From positions 17,495,181 through 17,559,180 of the forward strand of contig CAIIXF020000010.1 in assembly GCA_903813345.2 (NCBI GenBank): 64,000 bases of DNA, written 5' to 3'. The position numbers and the translations under genes were made by a program. The stretch's first letter is position 1. Each line of letters starts with the position of its first letter. Positions 11,002 to 52,101 of this stretch are shown piece after piece. A model generated the notes under the pieces. The model saw nothing but the letters and a program-made list of their open reading frames with translations, ran no database searches and was not told the DNA's origin. This DNA comes from Owenia fusiformis. Its lineage: Eukaryota; Annelida; Polychaeta; Sabellida; Oweniidae.

Positions 11002-12463
11002 TTAGGAGGCCCTCCTGAAAGGGCCTCCTATAGCTTTTGTAGCTTTTCTTTATTCTTCTTCTTTCTTATTTATTCTTCTTCTTATTATTATTCTATCAAA
11101 GCAGTTTTCTCCTACTTTCAACTAGCTTTCAACTTTCTACTATATGCTCCTACTAGATACCTGGTTTGATCTTGATGGGAAAATATTTCATATCTAGGTC
11201 AAGGTCAAAGGTCAAAATCTAGGTCAAATCTAAGTTTTTTTTCAAGTTTCTCAAGTTTGTCCTTATACTTCATTATTTCTTGCGATGAATTAAACTGAAA
11301 CTACATTAAAGTATTCTCTACAAATTGTTCACTATATGTCAGCATTAAATTTTTACCGTTTTTGAGATATTTGACGTCAAGAAACGGTCAAAAAAGGTCA
11401 TTTTTCAACTTGCTTCAATCTGACCAATTTTTTTTTTAAAAATCATCTACAAGTTCCCAGGAGTCCGAATCTGACCTCAGATTTTACCTTTGACCCTTAG
11501 TTGACCTTCAGTGACCTTCGAAAGGTCAGAAAAGTTGATTTTTCAGATTGAGTCTTTGGATTCAAATTTAGGTCAGTCTAATTACAAAAAGCCTACTGAG
11601 GTCTAAAAAAGTAAAAATTTCAAGGTCAAAGGTCAAGGTCATCAAATTAGGTCACAAACTGTGCTATCTAAGTTTCTCATAGTTCAAGACTACAAATCAA
11701 TATTTTTAATTGAAAGTCAAGATATACATTTCTCTAAGGGTTCTACACATATTAGCAATTGACTATTCATTAAAATTTTGTCCCACTTTTGAGATATAAG
11801 AGCTCAAAAACTGAAAAAGGTCAATTTTTCAGAGTTTATAAGGTCAAATTTTAACTTGCTTCAAATTCACCCAATTTTTTTTTGAAAATCATCTACAAAT
11901 TCTCAGTAGTTCATATTTAAACACAGATTTGTCATTTGACCTTTAGTTGACCTTCAGTGACCTTCGAAAGGTCAGAGAAGTTGATTTTTCAAATCGAGTT
12001 TTTGGATTCAAATTTAGGGTTAGCCTAAGCATAAAAGACCTACTGAACTCTAAAACAGTAATATTTTCAAGGTCAAGGGTCATGGTTATCAAATTAGGTC
12101 AAAGGTCAAAATCTAGGTCAAATCTAATTTTTTTTTAAGTTTCTCAACTTTGTCCTTATACTTCATTATTTCTTGCCATGAATTAAACTGAAACTACATT
12201 TTAGTATTTTCTACAAATTGTTCACTAGATGTCAGCATTAAATTTTTACCGTTTTTGAGATATTTGACGTCAAAAAACGGTCGAAAAATGTCATTTTTCA
12301 ACTTGCTTCAATCTGACCAATTTTTTTTTTTAAAATCATCTACAAGTTCCCATGAGTCCAAAGCTGACCTCAGATTTGATATTTGTCCTTTAGTTGACCT
12401 TCAAATTGTCAAAAATGCCTAAGAGGGCCTCCGTGAGATTGCTTGCAATCTTCAAAAGTCTAG
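11002..12463 (+). mobile_element. Non-autonomous Helitron-like element, 1,462 bp
   Basis: The insert interrupts the left arm of the larger element. The uninterrupted right arm shows that the empty site reads GTAATTTTAA (reverse complement of about 16596-16606), so insertion was between A and T with no target duplication. The 3' end has the Helitron signature: a perfect stem AGATTGC-TT-GCAATCT at 12436-12451, eight bases, then CTAG at 12460-12463 followed by T. The 5' end carries a perfect 11 bp-arm hairpin (11003-11030, TAGGAGGCCCT and its complement). It begins TT, not the canonical TC. No Rep/helicase coding is present. Confidence 0.6.
11190..12400. repeat. Tandem array inside the Helitron-like element, about 446 bp unit
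   Basis: The anchor AATCATCTACAA occurs at 11441, 11887 and 12334, giving spacings of 446 and 447 bp, so there are about 2.7 copies. Units are rich in GGTCAAAGGTCA-type direct repeats. The first and third copies are closer to each other than to the middle one. Confidence 0.7.
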
Positions 12464-18240: not shown

Positions 18241-19066
18241 CCATACGATAATCGAGTGAATCAGATAACAGATTTTTCGAAAACCCGTCTCGTGCTAAGA
18301 GTGTAAAAACTTGTATTAACATGCTCAAAAGTGCCAATGAGCACATCAATGTCAAGCTAAATCAATGTTGTGTCTAAAACAGGTACCTGATCGACTCAAA
18401 ACAGCTTGTCATTCACGTATACACGCTTAGCAAACACGGCGAAATGATCTGAATCTTGGAATTTCGTTCGAGAGCTAGTAATGTTTGCTCCGGTCTTCGT
18501 CATAAGTGTCATCAGACTTCACGCATGCTCAGGAGAAAAACCATCAACCAATAACGTTTTATAAATCAATTTTGCGCATGCGCCTTACAACGGTAAATAA
18601 ATTCGTATTAATAAACGAACCAATTTGAGATAACCCGATATCAGTCGGAGAAATCTGACGATCTACGAAACTCACTTCAAAAAATCAAATGCAGACTGAC
18701 GGCGTATTCTACTATGTTTGGATCTAAGATTTTCAGTATAGATAAAGTCTTTTATGATCTTTCGAATGAGGTAAGTGTCTAGTTCGAAAGACAATCGTAT
18801 CAACTTGAACAAAAGTTGAGTTTTGACGAAAAAATCTAACATGCGCAGAAGTCCCATTTTCGTTGTACCATATTGACTGGTTTCATTCTTTTAATTCTTG
18901 ATATAATGGCATGGTATTATACAATATTATGTCATTAAAATTCAGAAACTTGAAATTAAGGTGTCAAGGTTTGAAGTTCGAAACAACGGATGTCATCTTT
19001 TTCTTTTAATTTTCGAAACATAATACTTGCCATTCCACATATTCCAGATTGCTTGACTGACATTTT

Positions 19067-19345
19067 GATGACCCAACGCCAAAGGATAGCAAAATTGGTA
19101 ATTCTATTCAAAAAATAACACTGTCTTTGAGCTTGATGACCCAACCCCAGAGGATAGCAAAATTGGTAATTCTATTCAAAAAATAACACTGTCTTTGAGC
19201 TTGATGAGTCTTGACCCAGCCCCAGAGGATAGCAAAATTGGTAATTCTATTCAAACAATAACACTGTCTTTGAGCTTGATGACCCAACCCCAGAGGATAG
19301 CAAAATTGGTAATTCTATTCAAACAATAACACTGTCTTACTCTTT
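19067..19345. repeat. Minisatellite, 4 copies of about 68 bp
   Basis: Four consecutive copies of a unit beginning GATGACCCAACCCCAGAGG and ending CTGTCTTTGAGCTT. The third copy is a few bases longer. The copies are nearly identical, so the array is young. Confidence 0.85.
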
Positions 19346-19636
19346 GAGCATCTTGTTATGAGAAAACCAACAAGACGAAAGACATAATTGATACATTTGG
19401 AAAGAGTATCTTCTCATCAAAAGTCTTGAGGTTTTTTATTCATTATTACATCAACCGGTAGATAATATGTAATATAAATATAAGCGGAGAATCCAACGAA
19501 CAAAATATAGAAAAAACTATTGATTATAATTAGCACTTTTTAAGGCAGATCTTATTTCTATGCATTTTGAGGCAAAATCAATTAGTTTTACAAAGGTCAC
19601 CAGACACTAGGAATTATGTAACCGCGCAAAGCTTTA

Positions 19637-25172: not shown

Positions 25173-25423
25173 GTCTAAAAGAGGAGGATTCACTGAAGCA
25201 TGTAAGCAAGGACTCTAACGGGGTTGTCTCCTCGCCAGGATCAACGGGATGTGACGATCAGGACGGGGATAAGCCACTGTCGAAACAAAAGCGCCACCGT
25301 ACCCGCTTCACACCAGCGCAGTTGAATGAGCTTGAACGAGCGTTTGCAAAGACGCATTACCCAGATATCTTCATGCGTGAAGAATTGGCGCTCAGGATCG
25401 GACTCACAGAGTCAAGGGTTCAG
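25173..25423 (+). CDS. otp: otp exon 2 (homeodomain residues 1-46)
   Basis: Codes residues 26-109 of Orthopedia. A Ser/Asp/Gly-rich linker is followed by the N-terminal three quarters of a paired-like homeodomain starting KQKRHRTRF and running through helices 1 and 2 to TESRVQ. From family knowledge this block is almost identical to vertebrate OTP, the regulator of neuroendocrine and hypothalamic-type neurons. Homeodomain Glu17 is present (NELERAF). The exon ends CAG|GTAAGA exactly between homeodomain residues 46 and 47, the intron position shared by many paired-class homeobox genes. The downstream join is phase 0, so it can splice in frame to either exon 3A or exon 3B. Confidence 0.95.
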
Positions 25424-26836
25424 GTAAGAATGATCTTAAATAAATGTCTTGGTCGACAAATGGAATAAATGACTCGGGGATTCCTTGCAGAAATTATTGT
25501 CGCAAATTTTGAAAATGCTCATTCAAACACAATTGGAAAAAATTAGCGCAAATAACCTTGCAAAACATGATTATTCATTCTTTATTCTAAAATTTATTTA
25601 CATTGCTTTGTTATTTCGAATCTTGCCAAATGTGCTTTCTCAGTCAATCACAAAATCATTTAATATCATAACTCGTAAATAAAATGAATTTTACAAACGC
25701 TTCTCGGAGGCTTCAGTAGGTCTTTGGAGAAAAAAGTTTAGGTTACGATACAAAAAGCTATTCCTTGGACAATTGAAATATACAAAAATAGTTAAGAAAA
25801 TGTACAATGTATCTCGAATGGTAGAATGAACTTTTTTCTAAATGTTGATCTAAAAAACATATTTTTGGTTTATAAAAGTAAACTGGATATTCTGCAGTTT
25901 CTCTAGCATCCAAACTGACACATTGGGTTGCTGACAATCAAAAAACAGTCTGCATTCTGCAAAAGTCACTCTGACCTTCTCTGTGTTTAAAAACTTTCAA
26001 TTTCTTACTTCAAACATGTCGACCTGAACGCGCAAAATGTCGGACCAGTCGTTCTATTCTTTCAACATAGAATCAGATACCTAAGATAAGAAAATTTTAA
26101 ACCACATCATTTTTTTAAACCACATTTACACCGATACCTGTTGGGAAATAACAATACAATGATACTTTTTCTGTCAAGAGGGGTTCACGAGAAGGTCATA
26201 TAGGATATCCTAAATATTTTGATTGTTATCGAAGATGATATTACTTGGCTAATTGATCGACAAGAATCTGACACGCGTTTCCACTTCCTCATAACGACGT
26301 TCCACCGTTCTTCAGCTATATGCGTACACATCCATCATTCGCATTAGATCATGCAATTTTCGGGAACATAATCAAATGTTTTAATTACACCAACCCTTGA
26401 ACTATCGTGTCCTTTGTTTATTGTACAATGTTTTGTTGTACCGGTTTGTATAACTGTGAATCAAATAGCATGTCTATCTATGAGTTTTGTCATTTTCCGA
26501 TTATGTTTTGTCAACACTAAATGGTCGCGTGTTAGTTAAACATCTACCCCGTTGGTTAATTTATCGTTAATTCGATTAACTATTTAGTTTGATTTGTCAG
26601 CAAGAGCAAGGTCTTCTTCAACTTAAATTGCAAGCTGTAAATCTAGCGACGCTTGTTTGAAATCACTAATTTTTAGCAAACGGTGCACGATTCTAGGAGT
26701 TTAAGCCATATTTACAGAAGGCCTCGACTTCTAGGTATTTCTTGAAATATAAATAAAGAAAGAAAATGGGGTTAAGCCCGATGGTTAACCATACCTTACG
26801 TATGTGGGTAAAATAGTTGATTACAATAGAGAAAGT

Positions 26837-26917
26837 GACTGCGATTATTAATGGGGTTTGCTCCAAAAATTAGAACCTTCTTATTTTTTTTAGCAAAATC
26901 CATTAATAATCGCAGTC
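26837..26917. repeat. Small inverted repeat in otp intron 2
   Basis: Arms of about 26 bp (GACTGCGATTATTAATGG against CCATTAATAATCGCAGTC) separated by about 29 bp. A hairpin-forming MITE-like unit. Confidence 0.7.
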
Positions 26918-29900
26918 TTGTCATCACAATTGAATAATTGATGGATTTTGATAATTTTTTAATTTCGTTTTACAATTATACTATTTGAATATGTATATTG
27001 CATAACCTACACTACAAACTAACTATGGGGATGGTTTACATTGAAGTTCATGAAAGTGTAATTGTCCGACTGAGAAATTAATTGCATCGACAATGATTGA
27101 AATTATGGTATTAATCAATCAGTGTACATGTTGTATACATGTTATGTGACACCTATCTCATGTCACTGTTCACCTGTTGATAAAACTGTTAACCTGTGTA
27201 GTAGACCACATGCAGATCGACGTTTGTCAGTGTACACCTGTTTATCCAAACAGAGGTAAAACTAAACCACCCGGGCCGGGAAAACCACGCGATTGTTTCT
27301 TGCATGTTTACAGCGTGAAGAAACTGGTTACAGGTTTATTATAATATTTTGTTAAAAAAATTATACAATTCTTTTTATTCCAACCAGTCAAAATATTTAC
27401 AAAAACGTTGCTTTAGTGTGTGTTTTGCTAGTTACTAGTCACTGACCATATTAACACAACGCGACCAACTTGTACACAATGGAGTACGACATAAACAATA
27501 ACAAAAACAAAGCCGTGTGTCTGTTGATGCCTATTGTTTATTCTGTGATTTGACACTTGACCATTTTATATGAACATTTATTTATTACATTTATTTGTAT
27601 TTGTTTGTTTTTTGGCGGACTTGGGGATTTAAAATATAGATCTTATAAGAAACTACAATGATCTGAACTAATCATCTTGATCTTAATGCTTTCTACCACC
27701 GCGTAGACATTACAGGTAAAGATAAAATGTAACGCGTGCCAAATAAAGCATACAATTATTCCAATTATGCCATTAATCTTTATTTATATAATCATTTATG
27801 TTGAATTAATAGCCATGCAAATACCCCTAACAAAACATGTTATTAGAGCAATTACACTTTGTAACAATATACGGTGTGGAGATTTATTTTCAAATACAAG
27901 ACACTTTGGTAATAATCTATAGACTTCGTTCTATTAATAATATTTATTTCAATTAATAATTGTGAAAGGACCGAGTCCCATGCCGTGATTAAGCCTATAA
28001 CACATTTTACAATGGTTTATTTAATTTCATTAAAATAAGATAAACAGTCAATAAGGTCAGGACTTATGTTAGTATTCATACAAATATCAAAAGGTGATAA
28101 AATTCATATTGTTATGTAACAGTTACACAGTGCTAAGGAAAGTATAAGCCGAAGAGAATATTTGCAAGTATTCTAATCCGCCTAAAATATTTTGTATTTA
28201 TATTAAATTATTTTTATTTAATCTTTATCATTACAATTGATATTGTACTCTCTGTTAGTTTTGAATATTTTCAAAAATATTGTCATTAAGATTAATTTTA
28301 AGATTAAACATTTTGACTCTTATCGTTCAAAGCACATGCTATGTAAGCAGCCGGAGACAACCATGCAATTTAGCCACCTCAGAGAAAATCACACTTTGGT
28401 CTGATTTCAATTATTATTGAAGCTTATACTTAGCTCGAGCTTCATCACATATGTTTGTGTTTTTTTACGATAAGTTTCGTCTCATGGTTAATTGCGTTGG
28501 TACACTGCTATATGAGTTAAGACTTGCTTACATTTACAATGGCCGTATTTTATTTGATCACATCTTGTTCGTCTTAGTTTCTTTAACCTTTCCATTCAAG
28601 GTGATAGAAAAGTAATTCATTTTAACATATTTGACTTAAATACTCATAATTTATCAATTATTATTCCCCAGATAATCACATTGAAATAGCTATCCGCACC
28701 TTTTATTATTTATTACACCCAAACACGAATATTGTGGTTACGTCTATAAACGTCGAGCAGATCTTTTACAATTCGAATCATTGTATGCTTGAAATGTTAC
28801 AAATCTTCAAAATTAAAAACACATTGGATGAACTGATAGAGTTACAGTTTGAATGGTCCAGTGGAAACAGTTTGTTCTTGTCTCGTTTACCACTTAGCAT
28901 CGTGGACCACTTTTGAGAAGAAAAAGGAGATTGATACAATGCACAGGGTCAATGGAGATGTTTGTCTTTGCTAATAGTCACAGACGTTACTATATCTCAG
29001 GACTTCTGTTTACTGGCATCTTGGCTCAGAAGGAGACCATGGCATGCAAAGAATCCTTCTCGAGATAATAGGATAATTTGATTGTGTCGTGAAAGCTAAT
29101 TTCTGTGGTGGATGTTTCACGTTCAATCACGCAAACTGGATCTCGCGGGACTTCTTTTTACGCTGCAGTTTATTATGGACTAAAGACAAAGACAGAGGAG
29201 TGTTAAAGACTTAATTAAGCAGATATTAGTCGCCTAATTGCCTGTTTATGCTTCCAATTTTACCCTCAATTAGAGTCAAAGTTATTCATTCAGTAATTCC
29301 CCTATAAATCTTTCTCAACCCTTTAGTATCAATTCATAAATCTCATAAATAGCCGAGAATGGGGAATGCATAATATAATTCTTGTTTCTGGAATCCGTAA
29401 GTATATTTCCTCTGGAATATAAACAATGAGAATTATGTCAATTGAGTAATGCTCGAAGATAGAAATTCAATTAGGGCTAGTTTAGTCTCTGATTGGGTTA
29501 GTTAGGTATTTATTTGGCCTATTACTTTTCAACACATTGCACATAATTTAATTTATTAATTTTAAACGCCCTTCATTCGTTACTTAGTATTTTCTTTAAA
29601 ATTGATATTGACATTGATTCAATAAATCGTACGCGCTTTTATATTATCATCATTAGTAATTATATTTTACATTATATCTTTAGTTATGTATAATATTGTA
29701 TCATATTACATTACATTATATTACATTGTTGAGTATTATCTTATATTATCAGTTTATTTTTTATGATACTACACCAAAATGGTGCAACTTACAAATTACG
29801 GCAAAATATAGTGACGATTAATCATATAATACTTCTCACCTTAGAATAAGTTGAATAGAGATAATACAATCAATTATAATCGAAGTTAATGGTAGATGGA

Positions 29901-29925
29901 ATAGGGTACAATCGTGCACCTTGTC

Positions 29926-30070
29926 GGGCCAGTTCTAGGGGTTTTAGTGCTAGTTTAGACAAGATGTCAATAAAAGTTATATAAATAGAAGGCATTCATT
30001 TTACTATATCGCGACCCTCGGTCCAATATTTCACTATATTGCCCTTCAAAATGACGTTATTGTACTATTG
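29926..30070. repeat. Repeat related to 46.0-46.3 kb
   Basis: AGTTCTAGGGGTTTTAGT at 29931 and GGTCCAATATTTCACTAT at 30020 recur in the element at 45197-46936, at about 46302-46332 (inverted) and 46073-46113 (direct, with an inverted copy at 46017-46055). This indicates one interspersed family present at both places. Confidence 0.55.
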
Positions 30071-32151
30071 AAAAGTAGACGAACGCAAGTTAAAATACAT
30101 GGGAAGAAATCTGAAGAAATTAGTATTCTACATTGATTCCATGCCTATACTATTGTTTATATAAGAATTCATTACGAGACAATGGATCTATGCTCTGGCT
30201 GGTAATTTAGTGAATTAATACCTATTACTAGCAATTATAATGGTTCTCTTGACATAACATTCCGGGCGATATGACAGGCTTACGTTCTTGTTCTTGATCC
30301 AAAGCACTTTACATCTTTCTACATATGACTTGCATTCATAATGCCGTACCAAGGAAGTAACATTCACCCTACTTGTTTCGGAAAATAGCTTATTTCCATC
30401 TAAGAGTCAGTTAAATATAGGTGTTTTATGTTCCAGATCTTTAAGAATATGTTGTTGGGAATTTAAAATGCCTCGGGAATGACCCTGTCTAATTTAGAAA
30501 AGGGCGTTTTTGATCATCCATTCCTCACAAGTGCCATAGACAATATTCTTGAGTGCTCTGATCAGAAAATATGCACAATAGAATAATGAACCGATTAGTG
30601 ATTATTCGGTGGTTTTAGGTACAAGGACTCTTGACACCGAGACCTGTCAACGAGAACTGGCCTCTCAAATAATCCTTTATTTTTCTGAGACTACTGGAGT
30701 TGAATGAAGGAGATTAATCGTAAATAGATCTAATGAACAACTAGGGATGAGCACCCTCGAGCATCTTTGGAAGAATCCCTATACGAAATCATAAATTAAT
30801 TTTCACTTGTCTCCTGAATTTTCATCGCGGAAGCATTTTTACATCTGAATAGAAAGTCATCCGCATTTTATCAATCTACAACCGCGTAATTTGTCCAGGA
30901 TAGCATTCTATCTTATGCGATCCCGGAAATAGCTATAAACTCAGGAAATACTGGGGGTAGTTAATTTACCAAAGCAAATAATATATTTTTGGGTTAAAGT
31001 ATTAATGTTTGTGAAGTGAAACATTCTCCTTGACAAAATGCCGCATTACAATAGTAATTAGTTTGTTCGTTTTCCATAGGCATAAAAACGAAGGCCATTA
31101 TACCAAAATTTGCATATATTATTAAAGCCTTGTAATAAGCTTTGTCAACTACCGTAACTACTTTGAGCATTAATCACGATATTATAACATACTAATGGCC
31201 CCCGTGCTTCATATATTTCAATAAAGGCAACTCTTTATACTTTACATAATCATTTGTTTTCTTGAAGGCCTCGGTTAGATGATGTATCACGAGAAGTCCT
31301 CAAAATACACTCATTCACTGATTTTATGCGTGTGATAGTGCGATCAATGTGATCGGATCAAATCGCATAGCTGTTGTATATAACTGTGTATTCCAATCTG
31401 AAACTAATATAAAATAAATAATTTTTTTTACAAAGATGGGTACTTTATTTGAGCACTTATTTTTAATCTATCAAATGAAATATATCAACGTGGCATTAAA
31501 TTAAGAAAGCACGAGTGCAATTCTCTAGTAAGTACATCCAGACACGACGAATGATAAATGTAGATAATGTATAATAAGCTTAAGTTCGGATTTCTAAATG
31601 TTGCACATACTTATTTAGTAAGAAAGAGGCCAGAAAATAGCAATTTTCTCTTCAACTTCATTTAACATCTCAATATATGTTTTCTATTGGTGGCATATAC
31701 TTAAACGTATAAAAACCCATTCTAATACTCAGACCATCTCTGAAACTGAGAGAATGCTGTGATATCTCACGATGATAAAAACCTGATAGACTACGTTTTT
31801 TAATAACTTTTCCAAGTTCTTCAAAATAGTGGCCTTTGCTGTCTTGGTCGTGCACTGTTTTTCACCAGGGGTACAATTCCACCATTTTGGTCCCATCGGT
31901 CAAGAAAGTTGGAATAAAGCAGCACTTTCAAACAATAAAGGTCAGTGTTTTGAAGAACTTTGATTAATAATTTGATATAAACTGAAATGATATAGCAGTG
32001 CATATACATGTATTTTGCCTCTAGATATCTTAATTTCCCCCCACGCTAAGACGTACATATTTATGAAATAAAGTTGATATTATTGAAATTACTTTCAAGA
32101 TCCGATGATAAATATTCATGTCTGACATCTTTTTCGTTCGCTGTGTTGCAG

Positions 32152-32685
32152 GTTTGGTTCCAAAACAGGCGAGCCAAATGGAAGAAAAGGAAGAAGACTA
32201 CTAATGTATTCCGCACACCAGGGGCACTCCTACCGTCACACGGATTGTCACCATTTGGCTCTATGGGCTCCATGGGATCAATGAATGACTCGTTTTCATT
32301 CCCCGATACACGCTGGACAGGTATGGGTATGTCCCAGATGTCGCAAATGGGCGGTAACTCACTTACGTTGCCCCCATCATTACCCCGACAAGGTATTGCG
32401 CAATCTTTGCCAACAAGTGTAGGAGGCCTTGGACCTTCATCTGGAACAATGCATGCAGCGTCTTTATCAAATACAATGATAGGCAATGGTTCATCTATGT
32501 ATGGGTCAAATCCCTATGGCGTGCCATCGTCTTGCGAATCACCCCTATCTACGTCACCCGTGACATCAATGCCCTCACAGATGGCGTGTGGAATGCAAGA
32601 GATGGGCGATGCGTGGCGAGGAACGAGTATTGCATCACTTCGCAGAAAAGCTCTCGAACATTCAATGACATCTGGGTTTCGATAA
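32152..32685 (+). CDS. otp: otp terminal exon 3A (homeodomain 47-60, OAR)
   Basis: Codes 177 residues plus TAA, giving a 286-residue Otp isoform A with exons 1-2. It begins at a TTGCAG acceptor with VWFQNRRAKWKKRKK, the canonical recognition helix with Gln50, Asn51, Arg52 and Arg53. The conserved Otp block TTNVFRTPG, a Met/Ser/Gly/Pro-rich activation-type region and a C-terminal OAR motif (SIASLRRKALEHS) follow. Vertebrate OTP is about 325 residues, so this is slightly short but complete. Candidate polyadenylation signals lie 0.6-0.8 kb downstream. This is the terminal exon that matches the family standard. Confidence 0.95.
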   Translation, partial: VWFQNRRAKWKKRKKTTNVFRTPGALLPSHGLSPFGSMGSMGSMNDSFSFPDTRWTGMGMSQMSQMGGNSLTLPPSLPRQGIAQSLPTSVGGLGPSSGTMHAASLSNTMIGNGSSMYGSNPYGVPSSCESPLSTSPVTSMPSQMACGMQEMGDAWRGTSIASLRRKALEHSMTSGFR

Positions 32686-33461
32686 AAAATGATCAACACG
32701 GAAGACAGTGTTTTACACCCTTAACGTAAAATGAAACTGTATACAGAGTTACAGAAACATTGGACAATAATTTATGTTTAATTTCCTGAACTGAGATAGT
32801 AGTAATGTAGGTGTTAATATCGCTAATAGAATAGGAACAGGCTGTTTCTTGCCATCACTGAAAGTTCTCATATATAACCTAGCTCATTTTATCTTTCCAC
32901 ACTACTATGGTTTAACGGTTTAAGGCGATATGATTTTTTGTCTTGCTTTGACAATTGATTCACAAATAATTTATCATTCCTTTGAATATTTTTGTATGAT
33001 ACATTTTTTGTTGAATTCCTAAGTTAATTGCATGACTGATTGTACTAATATGTCGTTTAGTATATTTCACGTCATAAGAAAACATAAATATAAAGTACAA
33101 AGAGATAAATTATATTTTTCATCTAGAATAAGAAATCAAGAGTGCACGATAGCTTAATGGTATGATAGACGGTACCATTTTGGCTTCATATTTGACCTAC
33201 CATGTACACTTTCATTTATTGTACTATTGTATTATAATATTGTATATATTCCACTACTTACAACGAGTCTACTAGTCATTAAGTCAAGCTAGAGAAATTA
33301 AACTCTATATTCAGTATATATACTTTGTTTTTCTCTAGAATTATGAGGTTATATCTTTAATGGCTTATTTTTTAAAGAACAAAACACATATATCTGTACA
33401 ACAATAATATGTGGTTGGATTGTCATTAAAATGTCCATACACTGGATCTGATGTTGTATGA

Positions 33462-33467
33462 AATAAA
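33462..33467 (+). terminator. otp: Candidate polyadenylation signal for exon 3A transcript
   Basis: First AATAAA that I see after the exon 3A stop, 0.78 kb downstream. The weaker ATTAAA occurs at 33297-33302 and 33424-33429. In such AT-rich DNA the hexamer alone is weak evidence. Confidence 0.3.
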
Positions 33468-34419
33468 TGCCAGATATTAATGCGATCATGCAAACTGTAC
33501 TGTATATAGTCATAAACTATTTTAGGTTTGTACAAATGAATATTGTTTAGTGCATCAAGAACTAGTTTATTTAAATAGAGACAGTATACATCAGAAAATT
33601 AAATTATTTACAGCATGATTTACTCATTACTTTATATGTAAAAGACTTAGCCATCGCACTAGTGCGATCGATGCATTTGAATTTAGGAATGTGATGTCGT
33701 ATACACACACAATGCACGGTATAATGCATTGCTAAAATCTTTTTTTTATTACTTTTTTATTCATAGAAAACATTTGAAAGCAGTTACATTAACATATACA
33801 ATATTGCTAAAATCCATGTCTTATGTAACAGGTCGATCCAAACATTTTATTTTCTTCAAAGATATTAAAACTTCAAATATATGTTAGTGTACTTTTTTCT
33901 AAGCAAAAAGCCCGTAAAGGGTCCATATTAAACAAAAGTGGGCGTGGCAGTTCCTCATTGGCGGCAAATTTTTGATCATGTTACTAGATTTGGTTGTCAA
34001 GAGAAAACATATGGGACGTTTGTCTAAGTTGAAGTTTTGTCATCTATATAGTTTGGAGGAAATTTTCTAGTGGCAAATCAAAATAATTTTTCAGGTGCCA
34101 ATTTGAAATTGCAATTCAGGATAATAAAGGGTCATATAAAATATTGACCCATTGTTTAACCCATTCATATAACCTTCATGTATTAACTTCAGTCATGACA
34201 CAATACATGTTTAAAAAGAAAATTGTTCCAGTTTTTGTCAAACCCTGTATATGGCACGGTATATAAATATATATATATATTTATTTATTTTCAGTAAACT
34301 TAGAATCCAAATTATTTATAATAGCATTTGCACGTGTTGTGCATTTCACTTGTATGTTTATTTAATCTGTTGCTATCGTAAATAGTTTGGAGATACATGT
34401 ACATAAATGTACCTGTACA

Positions 34420-34615
34420 TGTATGTATCTATTTTGTTTTAACTATTGTAAATATATAAGAAATGTACTCGTATTTATTTATTTATTTTGCTTTCACCTG
34501 AAATAAAAATATGTAAATATATGAAAAAATGTCCTTGTATTTATCTATTTTGTTTGAAATATTGTAAATATATGGAAATGCAAATGTACTTGTTATTATT
34601 TGTTTGTACATATTT
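34420..34615. repeat. Degenerate AT-rich tandem repeat
   Basis: About three diverged copies of a unit containing TATTTTGTTT, GTAAATATATG and AAATGTACT-TGTATTT. An old minisatellite in the gap between the otp terminal exons. Confidence 0.5.
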
Positions 34616-35235
34616 TCTGCCAATCAATTGACCTCTGCTTTAATCCCAGGAAGAGATCTCTCATCTCCCAAAATAATGATATTTGGGTTCACTATATAGT
34701 TAGCTCACGCAAACTCTTAGGAGCGGCATCGCACATATAATATCTTTAACAGAGGAACGGAATTCATGAGAAAGTATGTAATTTGAACAACACTACCCGC
34801 CATCTTTAATTGTCTTCCAAAATTATTACCTTGTTTCACTACAACAATAAAAACCATATTGGTTTGTGTGAATTATATTATGCATATATATGGGACATCA
34901 TACTTGTAGATTGTCATCGTTAAGGTTTTCCCAGTTAACATTTGAGGATGAGTAATTATGAAGAATACGTAGATTCATCACGATCTGTTTGCTTTACAAG
35001 GCAACAAATAAATGCATTCCACAAAAATTAAAATTGAGATAATCCAACGCTTTCTCTATTTATTGTTTGCTCCTGTAATAGAATTTTTCAATTACCTGAT
35101 CTAAAATGACTTGATGTGCAGTAAGGACATACTTAAGGAAATAATATTTTTGTTCCTCTAAATTATCTACTTGTTAATGTTTCCATGGACGTCGACTGCA
35201 AGGTGTTTAGCAAGGATTTTACCATGTTCTTTCAG

Positions 35236-35763
35236 GTATGGTTCCAAAACACACGCGCTAAATGGAAGAAGAGAAAGAAGACCACAAACGTTTTCCGCAC
35301 CCCAGGGTCTCTCCTACCGTCTCATGGACTGACGTCCTTTGGATCTGTGGGTCCCATGAATGATTCCTTTGCATTCCCAGATTCTCGCTGGACAAGCATG
35401 GGTATGACACAGATGTCGCAAATGAGTAGCGCCCCACTTACGTTAGCGCCAACATTACCCAGGCAGTACGTTGGTCAGTCTTTGTCATCTGGTATGGGTG
35501 GCTTAAGTTCATCACAACCAGGGACAATGCAATCTTCTTTGCCAAATACAATGCTAGGGAATGGCACATCGATGTATGGATCAAATCCTTATGGCGTACC
35601 AGTTTCCTGCGAGTCCCCACTTTCGACGTCACCGGTATCGTCATCGGTTTCTTCCCAAATGGCTTATGAAATGGCGGACATGTCCGATGCCTGGCGAGGA
35701 ACCAACATTGCTTCATTGAGAAGAAAAGCTCTGGAACATTCAATGACCCCTGGGTTTATGTAG
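35236..35763 (+). CDS. otp: otp alternative terminal exon 3B (homeodomain 47-60 with R52T, OAR)
   Basis: A second, diverged copy of the otp last exon, coding 175 residues plus TAG; with exons 1-2 it would give a 284-residue isoform B. It starts after a TTCTTTCAG acceptor in the same phase as exon 3A. It keeps the Otp-specific block, the Met/Ser-rich region and the OAR motif (NIASLRRKALEHS). The recognition helix reads VWFQNTRAKWKKRKK: Asn51 and Arg53 are kept but Arg52 is Thr. Arg52 normally pairs with Glu17 in homeodomains, so stability may differ. Differences from 3A are largely at third codon positions while the protein is conserved, which argues for selection rather than decay. No separate exon 1-2 set lies upstream. 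It could be an alternative last exon or the remainder of an otp paralogue. Confidence 0.85.
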   Translation, partial: VWFQNTRAKWKKRKKTTNVFRTPGSLLPSHGLTSFGSVGPMNDSFAFPDSRWTSMGMTQMSQMSSAPLTLAPTLPRQYVGQSLSSGMGGLSSSQPGTMQSSLPNTMLGNGTSMYGSNPYGVPVSCESPLSTSPVSSSVSSQMAYEMADMSDAWRGTNIASLRRKALEHSMTPGFM

Positions 35764-36180
35764 ACCAAATTAAAATTATCTAATTATGGGTAAACATTGA
35801 TGTAAAAACTATTCCGATTAACAATTTAGATGAAAAAGCTTCTACGTATAATAGTTTATCAGTATCTAACATTGAACATGTTTCACTCTCTTCGGTATCT
35901 ACTTCAAAATACTTCACTTTTTATATTTCTACAAATATTATCAATTAACAATAATTGGCTTATTTACATTTATATAATCAATATGAAATTATTTAGCTTT
36001 GTTAGTGATGTCATGCATAATAAACTCCAATAGAAATACACACTATTGGCATCGCCAAAGTTACTTGATTGTTAGTTGCCAAAATAAACATGTGACGTCA
36101 CACACGAGACTGATAACGTGTACATGGTTTAGACGTATTCAAAGTTGCTGAAGCACCGGAGGGACCTAAATATTACAAAA
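35764..36180 (+). other. Otp exon 3B 3' UTR and gap to CatSper3
   Basis: 417 bp between the exon 3B stop and the CatSper3 start codon, on the same strand. It probably contains the 3' UTR of the otp-3B transcript and the promoter/5' UTR of the channel gene. Confidence 0.6.
36019..36024 (+). terminator. otp: Candidate polyadenylation signal for exon 3B transcript
   Basis: AATAAA 256 bp downstream of the exon 3B stop and about 160 bp upstream of the CatSper3 start. An ATTAAA lies at 35769-35774. Confidence 0.35.
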
Positions 36181-37365
36181 ATGATCTCTACCGAAAATGA
36201 TCCCGCTGTAGAAGGTGACGATAAACAGCAAAGTTCACACGACGTCAGGTTTGACGACAATTTCCATAATTATGTAACAAAAATTACAGAGTCAACGGCT
36301 TTCAATGCAGCCATAATGACAACAATCTTTTGCAATGCGCTCCTCATGGCCTTAGAAACTGACATGACTATGAAGCAGAGCTACCACAATGAATTTTTTG
36401 TGTTAGAAGAAATCTTCCTCTCAATATATACGATAGAGTTTATTATGAAAGTCTACGCAGAGCCAAAGGGATACTGGAGAAGTGGCTATAATCTCTTCGA
36501 CTTCCTTGTTCTTTCGATCTCCTTTCTACAGGACTTTTTAGCACTGTTCGATGCAGACAGATCGGGGCTTGATTCCCTACGGGTGTTGAGGGCACTTCGT
36601 ACATTTAGGACACTTCGGAGTGTTTCATTCATAAAAGGCCTTCAAGTTCTTGTTACAGCTCTAATAGATACCATCCGCAAATCTGTTGTAAATATTGTAA
36701 TGCTTCTACTTCTTATGATGTTCTTATTCGGCATTATGGGTTACTACTTGTTTGGATATAGAGAGGACGGAGACAAAGAACACTTCGGTCACCTAGGAGC
36801 CGCCATGCTGACACTGTTCACCTTCGTCACCGTTGATGGCTGGACTGACCTCCAAGATGAATTAGATAGACGTAATATGGTTGGCAGTAGAGTATATACC
36901 ATTAGCTTTATCATTGTCGGTCACTTCATATTCACAAATGTCTTCATTGCCGTGATTATAATGAACATCAGCGAGGCTACAGAGAACTATAAACGGGATC
37001 AGATTGCCGATCGTGAGGCGACCGTAAGGCATAAAAAAGAGTTCATGATGCAGCGCCAACACAATGAGGTGAAACAGATGATCGAACAGCAGAAGAAAGG
37101 GGACTTTTCCAACTTTCACGACATGGTTGGTGAGTTCCAGCATACTCTTCGACACAATGATTGTGTTATGATGACTGATCTTTGTACGAACCTAGTGTGG
37201 ATAGAAACTTTCGTTACTAGTCTTGAGCACATGGATAATACCACGTATCGCATCCAGCAACTCAACTTTGAATTAAGCGACATGTTGACATTGCACATGG
37301 AAAACCGACTTCGGCAAAGATATGGGTTTGGTGAGGTCAATCAACGCCAACAAAGACCAGTTTAA
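36181..37365 (+). CDS. CATSPER3: CatSper3-like sperm cation channel subunit, single exon
   Basis: Codes 394 residues, close to human CATSPER3 (398). One six-transmembrane domain: S1 about 41-59, S2 72-92, S3 104-123, S4 130-152 with Arg134, 137, 140, 143 and 146 at every third position, S5 168-193, pore and S6 237-262. The selectivity filter is TVDGW (217-221), the CatSper T-x-D-x-W signature. The C-terminus has a charged coiled-coil-like segment (about 270-310), then a region similar to CATSPER3 (FHDMVGEFQHTLRHND). CatSper is the Ca2+ channel of the sperm flagellum; subunits 1-4 form the pore. The frame is open upstream to a TTG at 36145, but 36181 is the first ATG (A at -3). The whole family-length protein lies in one exon, whereas the human gene has several, so this may be a retrocopy. 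No frame damage is seen. Confidence 0.92.
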   Translation: MISTENDPAVEGDDKQQSSHDVRFDDNFHNYVTKITESTAFNAAIMTTIFCNALLMALETDMTMKQSYHNEFFVLEEIFLSIYTIEFIMKVYAEPKGYWRSGYNLFDFLVLSISFLQDFLALFDADRSGLDSLRVLRALRTFRTLRSVSFIKGLQVLVTALIDTIRKSVVNIVMLLLLMMFLFGIMGYYLFGYREDGDKEHFGHLGAAMLTLFTFVTVDGWTDLQDELDRRNMVGSRVYTISFIIVGHFIFTNVFIAVIIMNISEATENYKRDQIADREATVRHKKEFMMQRQHNEVKQMIEQQKKGDFSNFHDMVGEFQHTLRHNDCVMMTDLCTNLVWIETFVTSLEHMDNTTYRIQQLNFELSDMLTLHMENRLRQRYGFGEVNQRQQRPV

Positions 37366-38152
37366 AATCTCCATGAAATCGGTAAATCTCACTTCATTGT
37401 TGTTTATAAACGCTTGCTTGACCCAGTTAGTAATTAGTTCGAATTATGTTTATCAAAATTTACGCAAATGTAAGTTTATATCTAGAATAACACCACCAAT
37501 CAGATAGAAATAGATACTGCTATCAATGCACAAAATAGTGTTCTTACATATATCATCAATTATTTTGATACTTGGAGAAATCAATTTAAGTATCTCGATA
37601 TTTGTAAATATTTACGAAATAAACATGTATAAAAACGGTTACAGAATGACAACAACATAAATTAAAACAGAAACGTCATTTTTCTAGATTGATCATTGAT
37701 GTTATGTAAGTTAAAACACTATTTTTACGAATTGAAACTTTATCAACAAAACGTACGTATTCAGATGATTCCATATATTCGAGATTTGTTCGAAAATTGG
37801 AGGATTGTGTTTTTGTGTAATGTTGCTATTTGTAAATTGATTTATTTATGAAATAAACTATTAAACAGTATGACATAAAATGTTGGTGTTTTTGGTGGAG
37901 ATTTTTCATTTCATAAAACAGTTTATTGAGTGGAAATTGTCTATCGAAAGGAGTTATTGTTGATTTGGTCGATGGAATATACGTAGTCGTAGACACTTCT
38001 TATACCCATTACATCCTGTTTTTCTGTTACAAAAATATTATCAAGAAAGAAGGAAGTCATAGAAGTCTCTCACTATTGTCTGAGACTGTTGCGATAAATA
38101 TCGAAGAATAAGATGCAAACTTCTAAAAGATTCTCAGATCGGTTTTGCACCC
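37366..38152. other. CatSper3 3' flank
   Basis: Probable 3' UTR and intergenic DNA. No poly(A) tract marking a retrocopy end is evident near the stop. Confidence 0.5.
37618..37623 (+). terminator. CATSPER3: Candidate polyadenylation signal for CatSper3
   Basis: AATAAA 253 bp after the stop codon. A second AATAAA lies at 37852-37857. Confidence 0.4.
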
Positions 38153-39175
38153 TTGAATTGAAACTTATTTCCCAATAATGGTCTGGTCATCACTACATAT
38201 GGTTACGGTCCAACAATTAATCATCTGTAACATTTGCTCTACGACAGCCGCCCGTAGCTTAACAAAAATCGATATAGAAACTCTACATCGCACTGCTTAT
38301 TCCTATTTTTTATGCTGCGTCTTTCTCTCAATTTTAGGTAGCAACTACCACCGTACGGTTGCCGTAGATCAAAAATGACTGAGATACTATTGAATTTAAT
38401 CCCCGGGATTAAAGCACACATGACTCCCTGGCCATGGGTGTGGTGTACCTCTGGCTATCCAAGATACCGGAGTGTCATTATCTCATATATAGCACATGAA
38501 AAGCAGAATACTTGTTGACACACGGTCTTATCTTTGTGTTTTGGGACTATCTTTTATTAGGTTTAATTATTATAGTTCAAGTGTACTACATTTTCTGAAT
38601 GTCTTCATTTCAAAGGTTAGACCCCATTAGTACAATATCTTAATTGCAGTCAACAGTACATTGAGAAGGACGTACAGAATGGTATTGGTCAGCAGCAGAT
38701 AGAATTAGCACCTCAATTTAAATACATCAAATGATGTATTTAAATTGAGGTCTTCTTCATTCGATTGAATTAAAATCGTATCCCTCCACTTTTAATGAAA
38801 CCAATCAAAATCTAATATAGATGGCGGCCGAGGTATACTTACAATAACAAATTGCGATAAAAGTGCCATCTTTACAGGTCTATGCCTATAACATTTTTCT
38901 GTTTAAGGAAACATCAATAATGATAATAGTTGATCATTATGCCCTCTTTTCATATATAGCAACATGTATTTTCTGCTCGGAAAATATCTTGATTCTCAAT
39001 TCAGTTGGTCCAACTGTGTTATAACCACCTTAGAAGTAGTAGATCGTTAAAAGAATTTTGTGGCCAATGACGGGGAAATATAGAGTGTCCATGTTTGTAT
39101 TGATACCTACTTAATACCTACATGAATCCAACTGTGAATGCCTGATACACAGAACTCGATGTAACTCAGTCATAA
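38153..39175. repeat. Tandem duplication, copy 1 (1,023 bp)
   Basis: Directly followed by copy 2. Begins TTGAATTGAAACTTATTTCC. Contains the 42 bp palindrome at 38710-38751, the hairpin TTTAATCC-CCG-GGATTAAA near 38395-38413, and ATGGCGGCC at 38821. The same short open frame is present in both copies but has no family features. Confidence 0.9.
38710..38751. repeat. Perfect 42 bp palindrome
   Basis: Arms ACCTCAATTTAAATACATCA and its exact complement, 20 bp each, separated by two A. The tandem copy at 39732-39773 is identical. Confidence 0.9.
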
Positions 39176-40128
39176 TTGAATTGAAACTTATTTCCCAATA
39201 ATGGTCTGGTCATCACTACATATGGTTACGGTCCAACAATTAATCATCTGTAACATTTGCTCTACGACAGCCGCCCGTAGCTTAACAAAAATCGATATAG
39301 AAACTCTACATCGCACTGCTTATTCCTATTTTTTATGCTGCGTCTTTCTCTCAATTTTAGGTAGCAACTACCACCGTACGGTTGCCGTAGATCAAAGTGA
39401 CTGAGATACTATTGAATTTAATCCCCGGGATTAAAGCACACATGACTCCCTGGCCATGGGTGTGGTGTACCTCTGGCTATCCAAGATACCGGAGTGTCAT
39501 TATCTCATATATAGCACATGAAAAGCAGAATACTTGTTGACACACGGTCTTATCTTTGTGTTTTGGGACTATCTTTTATTAGGTTTAATTATCATAGTTC
39601 AAGTGTTCTACATTTTCTGAATGTCTTCATTTCAAAGGTTTGACCCCATTAGTACAATATCTTAATTGCAGTCAACAGTACATTGAGAAGGACGTACAGA
39701 ATGGTATTGGTCAACAACAGATAGAATTAGCACCTCAATTTAAATACATCAAATGATGTATTTAAATTGAGGTCTTCTTCATTCGATTGAATTAAAATCG
39801 CATCCCTCCACTTTTAATGAAACCAATCTAAATCTAATATAGATGGCGGCCGAGGTATACTTACAATAACAAATCGCGATAAAAGTGCCATCTTTACATG
39901 TCTATAGCAACATGTATTTTCTGCTCGGAAAATATCTTGATTCTCAATTCAGTTGGTCCAACTGTGTTAAAACCACCTTAGAAGTAGTACTGAGATCGTT
40001 AAAAGAATTTTGTGGCCTATCACGGGGAAATTAGAGTGTCCATGTTTGTATTGATACCTACTTAATACCTACCTGAATCCAACTGTGAATGCCTGATACA
40101 CAGAACTAGATGTAACTCAGTCATAATG
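39176..40128. repeat. Tandem duplication, copy 2 (about 953 bp)
   Basis: Differs from copy 1 by a small number of substitutions and by loss of about 70 bp next to TCTATAGCAACATG (about 39900). The high identity means the duplication is recent. Confidence 0.9.
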
Positions 40129-42974: not shown

Positions 42975-44760
42975 ATTCTATTGTAATCACAAATGCAATG
43001 TACAGTCCTACAGGGTACACATCTTCATCATGTTCCCTGCTAAATTGAGTAATGTTTGAAACTTTCTTGAAACAAACTTGAAAAATTACAAATCCCATTC
43101 ATTTATTGCATAACCACAAATGCAATGTACAGGGTACACATCTTCACTGTATTCCCTGGTACACTGGTGATCCGCTCGATTACGCTGGCGTTTCGGTAAC
43201 AAAATGTCGGAACGTCGAAGGTACGATTTTTCTTTTTTCCCTATTTCACGCGTTGTAGGCAGAATCCCAACGACGTTTTTTCTCACAAACTTGTATCACT
43301 ATCGTTTGTTTTAGAAAATGTACATGTATGCGAAAAATAGCTCAGAAGACAACATAATCGGCGATTTGATTCCTTACTTCAGAAACGGTTTGGGTTAAAA
43401 GTGCAGATCTTAGCTGTTTTTCGAAACACCGTTTCTGAAACTTAAGTGAAGAATTAAATCGACGATTCTGTTATCTACTGAACTATTTGTTCGCAAATGT
43501 GTACTTTTTTAAACATATGTTACTGATACACGTTTGTGTAAAAAATGTCGTGAGAATTCTGCCTACAAGTTGTGAAATAAGGAAAAAAGAAAAATCGTAG
43601 CTTCGATGTTCCGACATTTTGTTTCCGAATCGAACCGTTTCGGTAACCAGCGTAATCGAGTGGATCACCAGTGTGTTAAATGTTTGAGTAATGTTTGAAA
43701 CCAGCTTCTTGAAACAAACTTAGAAATTACAAATCCTTATTCATTTATTGCATAACCACAAATGCAATGGACAGGATGCATACCATATTCATATTCCATG
43801 CTTAATTTTCCGTAATGTTTGAAACCTTCTTGAAACAAACTTAGAAATTACAAATCCTTATTCATTTATTGCATAACCACAAATGCAATGCACACGGTAC
43901 ATACCATAATCATATTCCATGCTTAATTTTCAGTAATGTTTGAAACTTTCTTGAAACAAACTTGAAAAATTACAATTCTTATTCATTTATTGCATAACCA
44001 CAAATGCAATGGACAGGATACATACCATATTCATATTCCATGCTTAATTTTCAGTAATGTTTGAAACTTTCTTGAAACAAACTTGAAAAATTACAATTCT
44101 TATTCATTTATTGCATAACCACAAACGCAATGGACAGGATACATACCATATTCATATTCCATGCTTAATTTTCAGTAATGTTTGAAACCTTCTTGAAACA
44201 AACTTAGAAATTACAAATCCTTATTCATTTATTGCATAACCACAAACGCAATGGACAGGATGCATACCATATTCATATTCCATGCTTAATTTTCAGTAAT
44301 GTTTGAAACCTTCTTGAAACAAACTTAGAAATTACAAATCCTTATTCATTTATTGCATAACCACAAATGCAATGGACCGGATAATACCATATTCATATTC
44401 CATGCTTAATTTTCAGTAATGCTTGAAACTTTCTTGAGACAAACTTAAAAAATTACAATTACTTATTCATTTATTGCATAACCACAAACGCAATGGACAG
44501 GATACATACCATATTCATATTCCATGCTTAATTTTCAGTAATGCTTAAAACTTTCTTGAAACAAACTTGAACAATTACAATTCTTATTCATTTATTGCAT
44601 AACCACAAATACAATACACATCTCCATCATATTTCCTGCTCAATGTTCAGTATTCTAGAAACGAAACGAACGAACGAACTTAATTATTCATTGCATAACC
44701 ACAAATGCAGTCCTTCATCATATTTCCCGCTCGATTTTCAGTAATGTTTGAAACTAAGTT
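42975..44760. repeat. Satellite array, 121 bp unit, about 10 copies
   Basis: GCATAACCACAAA occurs at 43750, 43871, 43992, 44113, 44234, 44355, 44476 and 44597, an exact 121 bp period. More diverged units lie before (43108, and about 42980) and after (44693). Units contain CTTGAAACAAACTT and TTCATTTATTGCATAACC. Edge copies are the most diverged, as expected for satellite turnover. Confidence 0.95.
43161..43674. mobile_element. Fold-back element inserted in the satellite, about 514 bp
   Basis: Ends ACACTGGTGATCC and GGATCACCAGTGT. The arms extend imperfectly for about 170 bp, for example GGCAGAAT against ATTCTGCC. The gap between neighbouring satellite anchors (43108 and 43750) is 642 bp, which is one 121 bp unit plus 521 bp, so this segment entered an existing array without disturbing its phase. 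Confidence 0.75.
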
Positions 44761-50135: not shown

Positions 50136-50137
50136 TA

Positions 50138-50326
50138 CAGGGTGATCCAGAAGTAACGTCAAAGACATTGTAATTTCAAAAGTATTCATCAGATCTTCAT
50201 GAAATTTGGTATACATGTACCCACAACATTTCTGAGTTACCATCTCAAAGATTGGAATTCAATCATTTCATTGGTTGAAATTATGGTTGCTATAGTAACC
50301 CGATATCGCGTAACCCGGGGCAAATT
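50138..50326. repeat. Mariner left terminal inverted repeat
   Basis: 189 bp, the complement of 51911-52099 with three visible differences (around GACATT/GATGTT and TTGGTA/TTAGTA). The inner edge is GGGGCAAATT. Confidence 0.92.
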
Positions 50327-50441
50327 ACTTAACGTGTAATGCGTAATCTCAAAATATCAACAAGATCTGAAATTGTTATATCCTCAACATTTTATTTCAC
50401 AACAATATAAATCATACTATTGCACAGTTACTAATAATAGT

Positions 50442-51677
50442 TCATTCTACATAATTGCCACCATTTGCAACACATTTCTCATGTCTGGATACCCATTCCT
50501 TGAACACAGAATTAAATCCATTAGAACTCATTCCTTGTAGGGCTAGTACTACGGCATTTTTCAATTCCTCACAGGATTGAAAATTATTTCCACTAAGGTT
50601 TCTTTTTAGTTCCCCATACAAATAAAAGTCACTTGGGGCAAGATCAGGTGAATAAGGGGCATGTTCAAGTTGTTGAAATCCAAGTGTTTGGACTGTGTTG
50701 CTGGTCAGGATTGCAGTGTGCGTAGGGGCATTGTCCCAATGCAAGATAAACTGCTGCAGATGTCCGGGACGCTTTTTCCTCAGGGAACGTTGAAGATCAC
50801 GCTTCAGAACCTGAAAAACAAATGTTTAATGGTTGTTAATCCAGTTGTTTCATTGATTGGATTTGGATTTGAATCATGGCCATGGAGTTATAATTATATT
50901 GACAGTGAACAACATTTAAATACTTTAATTTAAAAATAAAATTCACAGTATGATGTATTATTGGAACAAATGATATCTTACCTTTGCAATGTAAACGGCA
51001 TTAATTCTCTGGCCAATGGGAACAAAATGGGTTAACACCATTCCTCTAATGTCAAAGAATGTCACAACCATTTGTTTCTTTTGTGGAATTCCTGGTACTA
51101 TTTTAGGCTTGGTTGGTGTTGGGGAGTTGTCATGTTTCCACGATGAACTTTGTTGCGTGGTCTCTGGGATGTAGAATGATAGCAATGATTCGTCACTCGT
51201 AATGATCTTGTTAAGAAAGTCATCTCCATCTCTCCAATATTTTGCAAGAAAGTCCCTTGAAGCCTTAACACGCCGGTCTTTCTGCTCCTGTGTCAAGTCA
51301 TGCGGCACCCATTTAGCAGACACCTTCTTTAACAGACAGTTCTTTGTCAGTATCCGTTGCACAGTCCCATAGCTCAGATCGTGTTTTTCAGCCAATTCTC
51401 TGATAGAAATTTGCCTATTGTCCATAACATCAGCTTCAATTGCTTTGATGGTTTGATCATCGAATGACGACACTGGCCTGCCTCCTCGCTGCTTGTCTAC
51501 CACTTCATCATATCCACTGGAATACTTGTTAAACCACCTGTAAATGTTTCTCTCAGCAATGGCAGCTTTACCATATGCCTTCTTTATCTGTCTTATAGTC
51601 TCTTTTACACCTTTCCCCAACTTTACACAGAACTTAATGTTTGTTCTTTGCTCTATTTTACTCTGACTTGGCGCCAT
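50442..51677 (-). CDS. Mariner DD34D transposase with one predicted intron
   Basis: Exon 1 is 51677-50982 (232 codons) and exon 2 is 50810-50442 (122 codons plus stop), together 354 residues; mariner transposases are about 345. The 171 bp intron (50981-50811) has an AAG|GTAAGA donor and TTTGTTTTTCAG acceptor and is phase 0. Without splicing the frame ends seven codons into the intron. Two helix-turn-helix regions (about 21-50 and 90-115) should bind the terminal repeats. Catalytic aspartates are D162 (TSDES), D258 (HWDNAP) and D293 (SPDLAPSD). The last two are separated by 34 residues, the mariner DD34D pattern. The linker motif WVPHDLT is also typical. It cuts and pastes DNA at TA sites. No damage is seen. 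The intron is the odd feature. Confidence 0.9.
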
Positions 51678-51910
51678 CTTGAATTGGGTGGGTTAGTGTC
51701 CTTGGTCATGTCAGTATTTGTCATGGATGATGGAAGCAATTCAAAGAAATTGAAAGCTTTTTATGAATGCCTATTGTGACATCACAACTATTACATATTT
51801 GTTACCATGGCAACAAATATAAAAATCATAGAAAACAAACAATGAACATTTTCAAATGTTACTGACTTTTTAAATTAGAGAAATTCACAAAAACGTTATG
51901 GTTTCTCTTC

Positions 51911-52099
51911 AATTTGCCCCGGGTTACGCGATATCGGGTTACTATAGCAACCATAATTTCAACCAATGAAATGATTGAATTCCAATCTTTGAGATGGTAA
52001 CTCAGAAATGTTGTGGGTACATGTATACTAAATTTCATGAAGATCTGATGAATACTTTTGAAATTACAACATCTTTGACGTTACTTCTGGATCACCCTG
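51911..52099. repeat. Mariner right terminal inverted repeat
   Basis: 189 bp inverted partner of 50138-50326, ending GGATCACCCTG next to TA. Confidence 0.92.
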
Positions 52100-52101
52100 T
52101 A

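Follow-up and report, generated by a model that had tools for sequence, protein, structure and literature searches.

The otp locus of Owenia fusiformis raises the question of whether one homeodomain gene can end in either of two last exons that encode different versions of helix 3. We analysed a window of 64,000 nt (assembly GCA_903813345.2, contig CAIIXF020000010.1, positions 17,495,181-17,559,180 of the forward strand) that contains 0 N, and all coordinates given here are positions within this 64-kb window. According to a preliminary description of this DNA, exon 2 ends at homeodomain residue 46, and two downstream exons, 3A and 3B, continue in equal phase from V47, each with an Otp block, an OAR motif and a stop. 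This was borne out, and the coordinates were right (Table 1). The last codon of exon 2 is Gln46, followed after 25423 by the donor GGGTTCAG/GTAAGAA (CAG/GTAAGA), and both 3A and 3B start with V47 in identical phase behind a CAG acceptor. Codon positions also agree with the replacement of Arg52 by Thr in 3B and with the presence of Glu17 in exon 2: residue 52 is encoded by AGG (Arg) at 32167-32169 in 3A and by ACA (Thr) at 35251-35253 in 3B, while the codon for Glu17, counted from V47, is GAA at 25334-25336. The locus thus has two terminal exons of equal phase, each behind an acceptor, on the 3' side of a single donor, which is the layout of alternative last exons. The term 'mutually exclusive last exons', as used previously, holds in that there are two intact exons and one exon 2, but not in the sense of internal cassettes, since each exon has its own stop. 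Exon 1 was not found in the window when a vertebrate Otp N-terminus was used as the query (best E 4.6).

Table 1. Position of the otp exons, motifs and candidate poly(A) signals within the 64-kb window.
Feature	Position	Strand	Remarks
otp exon 2, shared	25173..25423	+	N-terminal linker and homeodomain residues 1-46
Intron, exon 2 to 3A	25424..32151	+	length 6,728 nt; conserved site between residues 46 and 47
Last exon 3A	32152..32685	+	V47 to the end of the homeodomain (Arg52), then Otp block, C-terminus and stop
OAR motif of 3A	32614..32667	+	WRGTSIASLRRKALEHSM; 35.3 bits; position counted from protein
AATAAA candidate poly(A) signals between 3A and 3B	33462..33467 (first), 34123, 34502, 34846, 35007	+	consensus match only
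Last exon 3B	35236..35763	+	V47 to the end of the homeodomain (Thr52), then Otp block, C-terminus and stop
OAR motif of 3B	35692..35745	+	WRGTNIASLRRKALEHSM, Ser to Asn; 25.9 bits; position counted from protein
AATAAA candidate poly(A) signals after 3B	36019..36024, 36083	+	consensus match only

Exon 2 was joined by hand to 3A or 3B, and both proteins were searched against Pfam. The homeodomain was matched with 88.5 bits in the form with 3A and with 85.8 bits in the form with 3B (cut-off 22.9), and the OAR matches, which lie near the C-terminus of both forms, exceeded the cut-off of 20.1. Within the homeodomain match the two forms differ at residue 52 only, which lowers the score by 2.7 bits, and the single Ser to Asn change in the OAR motif of 3B lowers it by 9.4 bits. 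Because 3B scores lower in both matches, 3A seems the more typical of the family and 3B the derived form; the vertebrate Otp C-terminus agrees with this order. Gln50 is present in both exons by counting, as in PRD-type homeodomains, and the best solved relatives of the homeodomain are aristaless proteins. The name otp is based on the motifs KKRKKTTNVFR and WRGTSIASLRRKALEH, which, like the label Otp block, we take to be those of Otp. An intron between homeodomain residues 46 and 47 is present as well, but it is common to hbn, otp and rx of Nematostella (PMC2938728) and is therefore not diagnostic of otp.

Both exons have been under purifying selection since the duplication, and 3B has been kept for long. 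Indeed, 127 of the 174 aligned residues are identical between 3A and 3B, different codons are used at 51 of these 127 residues, and 35 of 66 fourfold sites differ. The NG86 method gave a dN of 0.183, a dS of 1.26 and a dN/dS of 0.145 (bootstrap 0.079-0.229), and across four methods dS ranged from 0.83 to 1.31 and dN/dS from 0.13 to 0.24. These values support the earlier proposal that both exons are under selection while many codons have changed silently. The constraint is uneven along the exon, with dN/dS values of 0.006 for the 24 codons from V47 to TPG, 0.084 for the next 33, 0.408 for the middle 43, 0.064 for the next 34 and 0.180 for the last 40. The first of these blocks contains 11 synonymous differences on 15 sites versus one nonsynonymous difference on 57 sites (Fisher 5e-9), so that the synonymous differences are near saturation and the ratio is only a rough one. 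Of its 24 codons, 11 differ: 10 of the changes are silent, and the remaining one, Arg52Thr, is the sole amino-acid change there. This constraint implies that the block was kept most simply as part of a working homeodomain, and 3B would then most simply have been retained as half of a functional homeodomain.

It should be noted that all dN/dS values combine the two branches across the entire period after the duplication, and a recent loss of function in 3B is therefore still compatible with them. Assuming an even split of dS, a 3B branch that had been neutral throughout would, by simple arithmetic, give a dN of about 0.6, and one that had been neutral for half of the time a dN of about 0.3; the observed 0.18 lies below both. 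When neutral drift of 3A was simulated along one branch, the frame stayed open in 122, 17, 6 and 1 of 1000 runs at distances of 0.1, 0.2, 0.3 and 0.6, respectively, and a second neutral simulation left it open in 12, 1, 0 and 0 of 2000 runs at 0.3, 0.5, 0.75 and 1.0. The open frame of 3B is thus not due to chance. A broken frame and a relaxed dN/dS, the signs of a pseudogene that were tested in 3B, were not seen, the ratios being those of the pooled branches.

Comparison by blastn of 25500-34000 with 34001-40000 gave one strong match (E 8e-94; next 0.043), between 32146-32679 and 35230-35757. It starts 6 nt upstream of the exon, within the acceptor, and continues through the exon to one codon short of the stop. 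The ungapped identity of the flanks was 0.32 over the 50 nt before and 0.33 over the 100 nt after the match, where 0.28 is expected from base composition. Such near-chance identity implies that the duplication is old and that little was kept beyond the coding exon. An intronic element common to both exons was sought by blastn beside 3A and 3B and not found, which counts against their being alternative last exons. The acceptors had been described as good, and a crude pyrimidine count supports this for 3A and 3B, neither of them being unique: 48 of the 446 AGs in 25424-35300 score at least as high as the 3A acceptor and 17 at least as high as the 3B acceptor, the site itself being included in each count. 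Among the 116 AGs that are part of CAG or TAG and have no near AG, 26 match the level of the 3A acceptor and 9 that of 3B. Five AATAAA hexamers lie between 3A and 3B, little more than the approximately 3.1 that base composition alone would produce, and this too speaks against alternative last exons; the AATAAA matches that follow 3B speak for them. The intron upstream of 3A also contains a 36-nt inverted repeat at 26837-26917 (86 per cent complementary, 9-nt spacer).

Several further elements were seen in the neighbourhood. An intronless ORF for a 394-aa ion channel lies at 36181-37365 (+), some 420 nt past the stop of 3B, and its best solved relative is CatSper3 (7eeb_C, E 1.8e-73). This ORF, apparently a sperm channel gene without introns, close to otp and on the same strand, may be a retrocopy. 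Just after it, a direct repeat of about 1 kb, 38153-39176 and 39176-40127, whose two matching pieces are 98.5 and 93.8 per cent identical, is apparently a recent tandem duplication. The window also holds a satellite-like array at 43683-44615 (period 121, 7.7 copies, 93 per cent matches), arrays at 11202-12403 (period 447, 2.7 copies) and 19065-19389 (period 68/143), and a mariner-like element at 50136-52101 with 191-nt inverted ends that are 98 per cent alike. The latter looks broken, as its transposase is split into two ORFs (-). Rfam searches at gathering scores and ARAGORN gave no matches in the 64-kb window.

A second gene copy would need its own exon for homeodomain residues 1-46, and a hidden second exon 2 had been raised as a possibility in the preliminary description. 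No such exon was found within the 64-kb window by tblastn, motif scan or blastn, so that a complete tandem paralogue is not supported there. With exon 2 as the query, tblastn on both strands recovered exon 2 itself (E 3e-55) and no other match below E 1.5. A generic homeodomain query matched exon 2 (3e-18), helix 3 of 3B (5e-7), a stretch at 57450-57382 (-) (0.055) and helix 3 of 3A (0.18), and when all six frames of the window were scanned with three homeodomain motifs, a single helix-1/2 core and the two helix-3 cores came up. Blastn at 1e-3 matched 1-25423 neither to the interval separating the two last exons nor to the DNA downstream of 3B. The homeodomain-like stretch at 57450-57382 (-) has 23 residues, reads SIWFQRRKFKYH and then runs into a stop; the 39-aa piece around it matched 0 Pfam families, and it may be a chance match or a decayed fragment. 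We rejected it as a supplier of residues 1-46 for 3B because it lies downstream of 3B on the opposite strand. As no further homeodomain was found in the 64 kb, no linkage to hbn or rx is visible, the window being smaller than some known HRO linkages, which span 109 and 386 kb elsewhere (PMC2938728). Viral contigs searched with the exon 3A protein gave 13 pattern matches, and genome contigs of bacteria and archaea, for which the homeodomain served as query, gave 242; 0 were confirmed in either case.

We consider it probable, with odds of roughly two in three, that otp of O. fusiformis has two alternative last exons, the outcome of an ancient exon 3 duplication, and that they would give Otp-A and a Thr52-bearing Otp-B. 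What points to alternative last exons is that the constrained helix-3 block needs residues 1-46, for which exon 2 is the sole supplier found. The equal phase, acceptor type and first codon position of the two exons, the low dN/dS, and a similarity that is confined to the exon and 6 nt before it are further points in favour. Exon 2 would provide these residues to either last exon. Splicing to 3A, with cleavage of the transcript upstream of 3B, would yield an ordinary Otp that has Arg52 and a canonical OAR motif. Skipping of 3A together with its poly(A) sites, and splicing to 3B, would yield a protein whose helices 1 and 2 are unchanged, whose helix 3 has Thr52, and which differs in the segment that links the Otp block to the OAR motif. 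The choice could be made by competition of the 3A acceptor and the poly(A) sites behind 3A with the 3B acceptor; that the proximal or the distal last exon would be selected under neural control is a guess. If Thr52 weakens or alters DNA binding, Otp-B would tune or antagonise Otp-A. We infer the splicing of exon 2 to 3B and its regulation from the genomic sequence, and on this basis the interpretation as a regulated pair of proteins is likely.

The main rival explanation holds that 3B is the remnant of a complete tandem otp paralogue that has recently lost its own exons 1 and 2 and now starts to decay, an incomplete paralogue having been named in the preliminary description too. Tandem duplication of whole genes is common, which counts in its favour, and so does the fact that each of the two conserved motifs shows one score-lowering departure, both in 3B; as early decay would give the same, we count these departures against alternative last exons. 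However, 3B has kept its frame, acceptor, stop and both motifs, and neither the interval between the last exons nor the region past 3B showed a remnant of exon 2 or of other upstream sequence (blastn at 1e-3, tblastn). Moreover, 878 of 1000 simulations of neutral drift along one branch had acquired one or more stops already at a distance of 0.1. We therefore regard an orphaned paralogue as unlikely. It appears still more improbable that 3B is part of another gene, with its first exons beyond the limits of the window or missing through an assembly misjoin. This idea draws on the fact that only 25 kb of the window lie upstream of exon 2 and that no exon 1 was found in them, but the missing exons would have to sit more than 25 kb away, upstream of the whole unit of exon 2 and 3A, or be absent from a sequence with 0 N. 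A second exon 2 of equal age should also not easily collapse onto the first, because the synonymous divergence of 3A and 3B is about 0.8-1.3.

The reading frame around 3B is open from 35137, with two in-frame ATGs before V47, and could on that account encode a short protein from a start of its own, lacking helices 1 and 2. The strict constraint on V47 to TPG would not be expected in a protein that lacks the remainder of the homeodomain, the acceptor has been retained, and similarity to 3A stops 6 nt upstream of the exon, all of which makes such a protein very improbable. Depending on the quality of the assembly, 3A and 3B might also be thought to represent haplotypes or an assembly duplication of one exon. 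This is hardly credible, since a synonymous divergence of 0.83-1.31 and unrelated flanks do not fit two alleles of one locus.

If 3A and 3B are alternative last exons, residue 52 is of particular interest. In homeodomains, Arg52 commonly forms a salt bridge with Glu17. Thr52 may weaken or alter the DNA binding of Otp-B, and its stability might also differ, as had been suggested in the preliminary description. A residue other than Arg at this place need not abolish function, as homeodomain 1 of DUX4 carries Glu at the aligned place in solved structures. Lys52 is described as very unusual for the PRD class: of 111 homeodomains, DMBXd and an allele of Nematostella Rx are the only ones to carry it, and the section concerned does not mention Thr (PMC2938728). 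The PITX2 variant R90C, which by our own count from Lys50 affects position 52, is listed with reduced DNA binding and transactivation, and it is outside the seven variants for which modelling indicated a structure change (PMC5903617). By this analogy, residue 52 can matter for function. We propose only tentatively, and with some doubt, that Thr52 was fixed by selection as the sole replacement in helix 3, and that a splice switch might thereby alter how tightly a neuroendocrine selector binds DNA or which targets it chooses.

If both exons are spliced to exon 2, a single gene encodes two regulators. Because the 46/47 intron sits just before the recognition residues, duplication of the last exon allows helix 3 to vary while helices 1 and 2 stay as they are. 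A case of this kind that has been kept for long would, if true, mean that gene number understates the homeodomain repertoire, and it would represent a natural experiment on residue 52.

Choices between exons of this general kind are known from other transcription factors. In the PRD-like genes PRRX1 and SHOX, the choice of the last exon changes the OAR end; it takes place after a complete homeodomain, unlike the situation of 3A and 3B. The alternative exons of E2A (E12/E47) and FOXP1 (exon 18/18b) swap part of the DNA-binding domain and change DNA binding, but these proteins belong to other domain families and the exons concerned are internal, unlike the last exons of otp. In the fly hth gene, a micro-exon lies outside the homeodomain and mutually exclusive exons were ruled out (PMC7392893).

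With respect to Otp itself, no described Otp with two helix-3 exons was found in the literature searched, mostly at the level of titles and the beginnings of abstracts. One Otp is given in a table for the Pacific oyster (PMC5322547), and extracts of the cluster accounts for Biomphalaria and the Hong Kong oyster list Otp and do not speak of two last exons (PMC8848322, PMC7566022). Spiders are credited with one Otp and the scorpion with two (PMC10726417). The two variants of Nematostella otp, neither of which encodes an OAR motif and one of which is without a repression domain, resemble the forms proposed here in that the splice variants of otp and rx affect parts outside helices 1 and 2 (PMC2938728). 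The R/K change at position 52 of Nematostella rx concerns the same residue and is likewise natural, but it is found in rx, is allelic, and leads to Lys (PMC2938728). In Drosophila, otp has nine transcripts in two classes with different 5' ends, in which exons 1-2 or exon 3 are spliced to exon 4 (PMC7678101). One gene thus gives several transcripts in different tissues there too, but they vary in the 5' exons and not in helix 3. The O. fusiformis locus shares with the PRD-like Otp family the homeodomain, the Otp block, the OAR motif and the 46/47 intron (PMC2938728), and it would differ from described Otp in having two last exons, one of them with Thr52.
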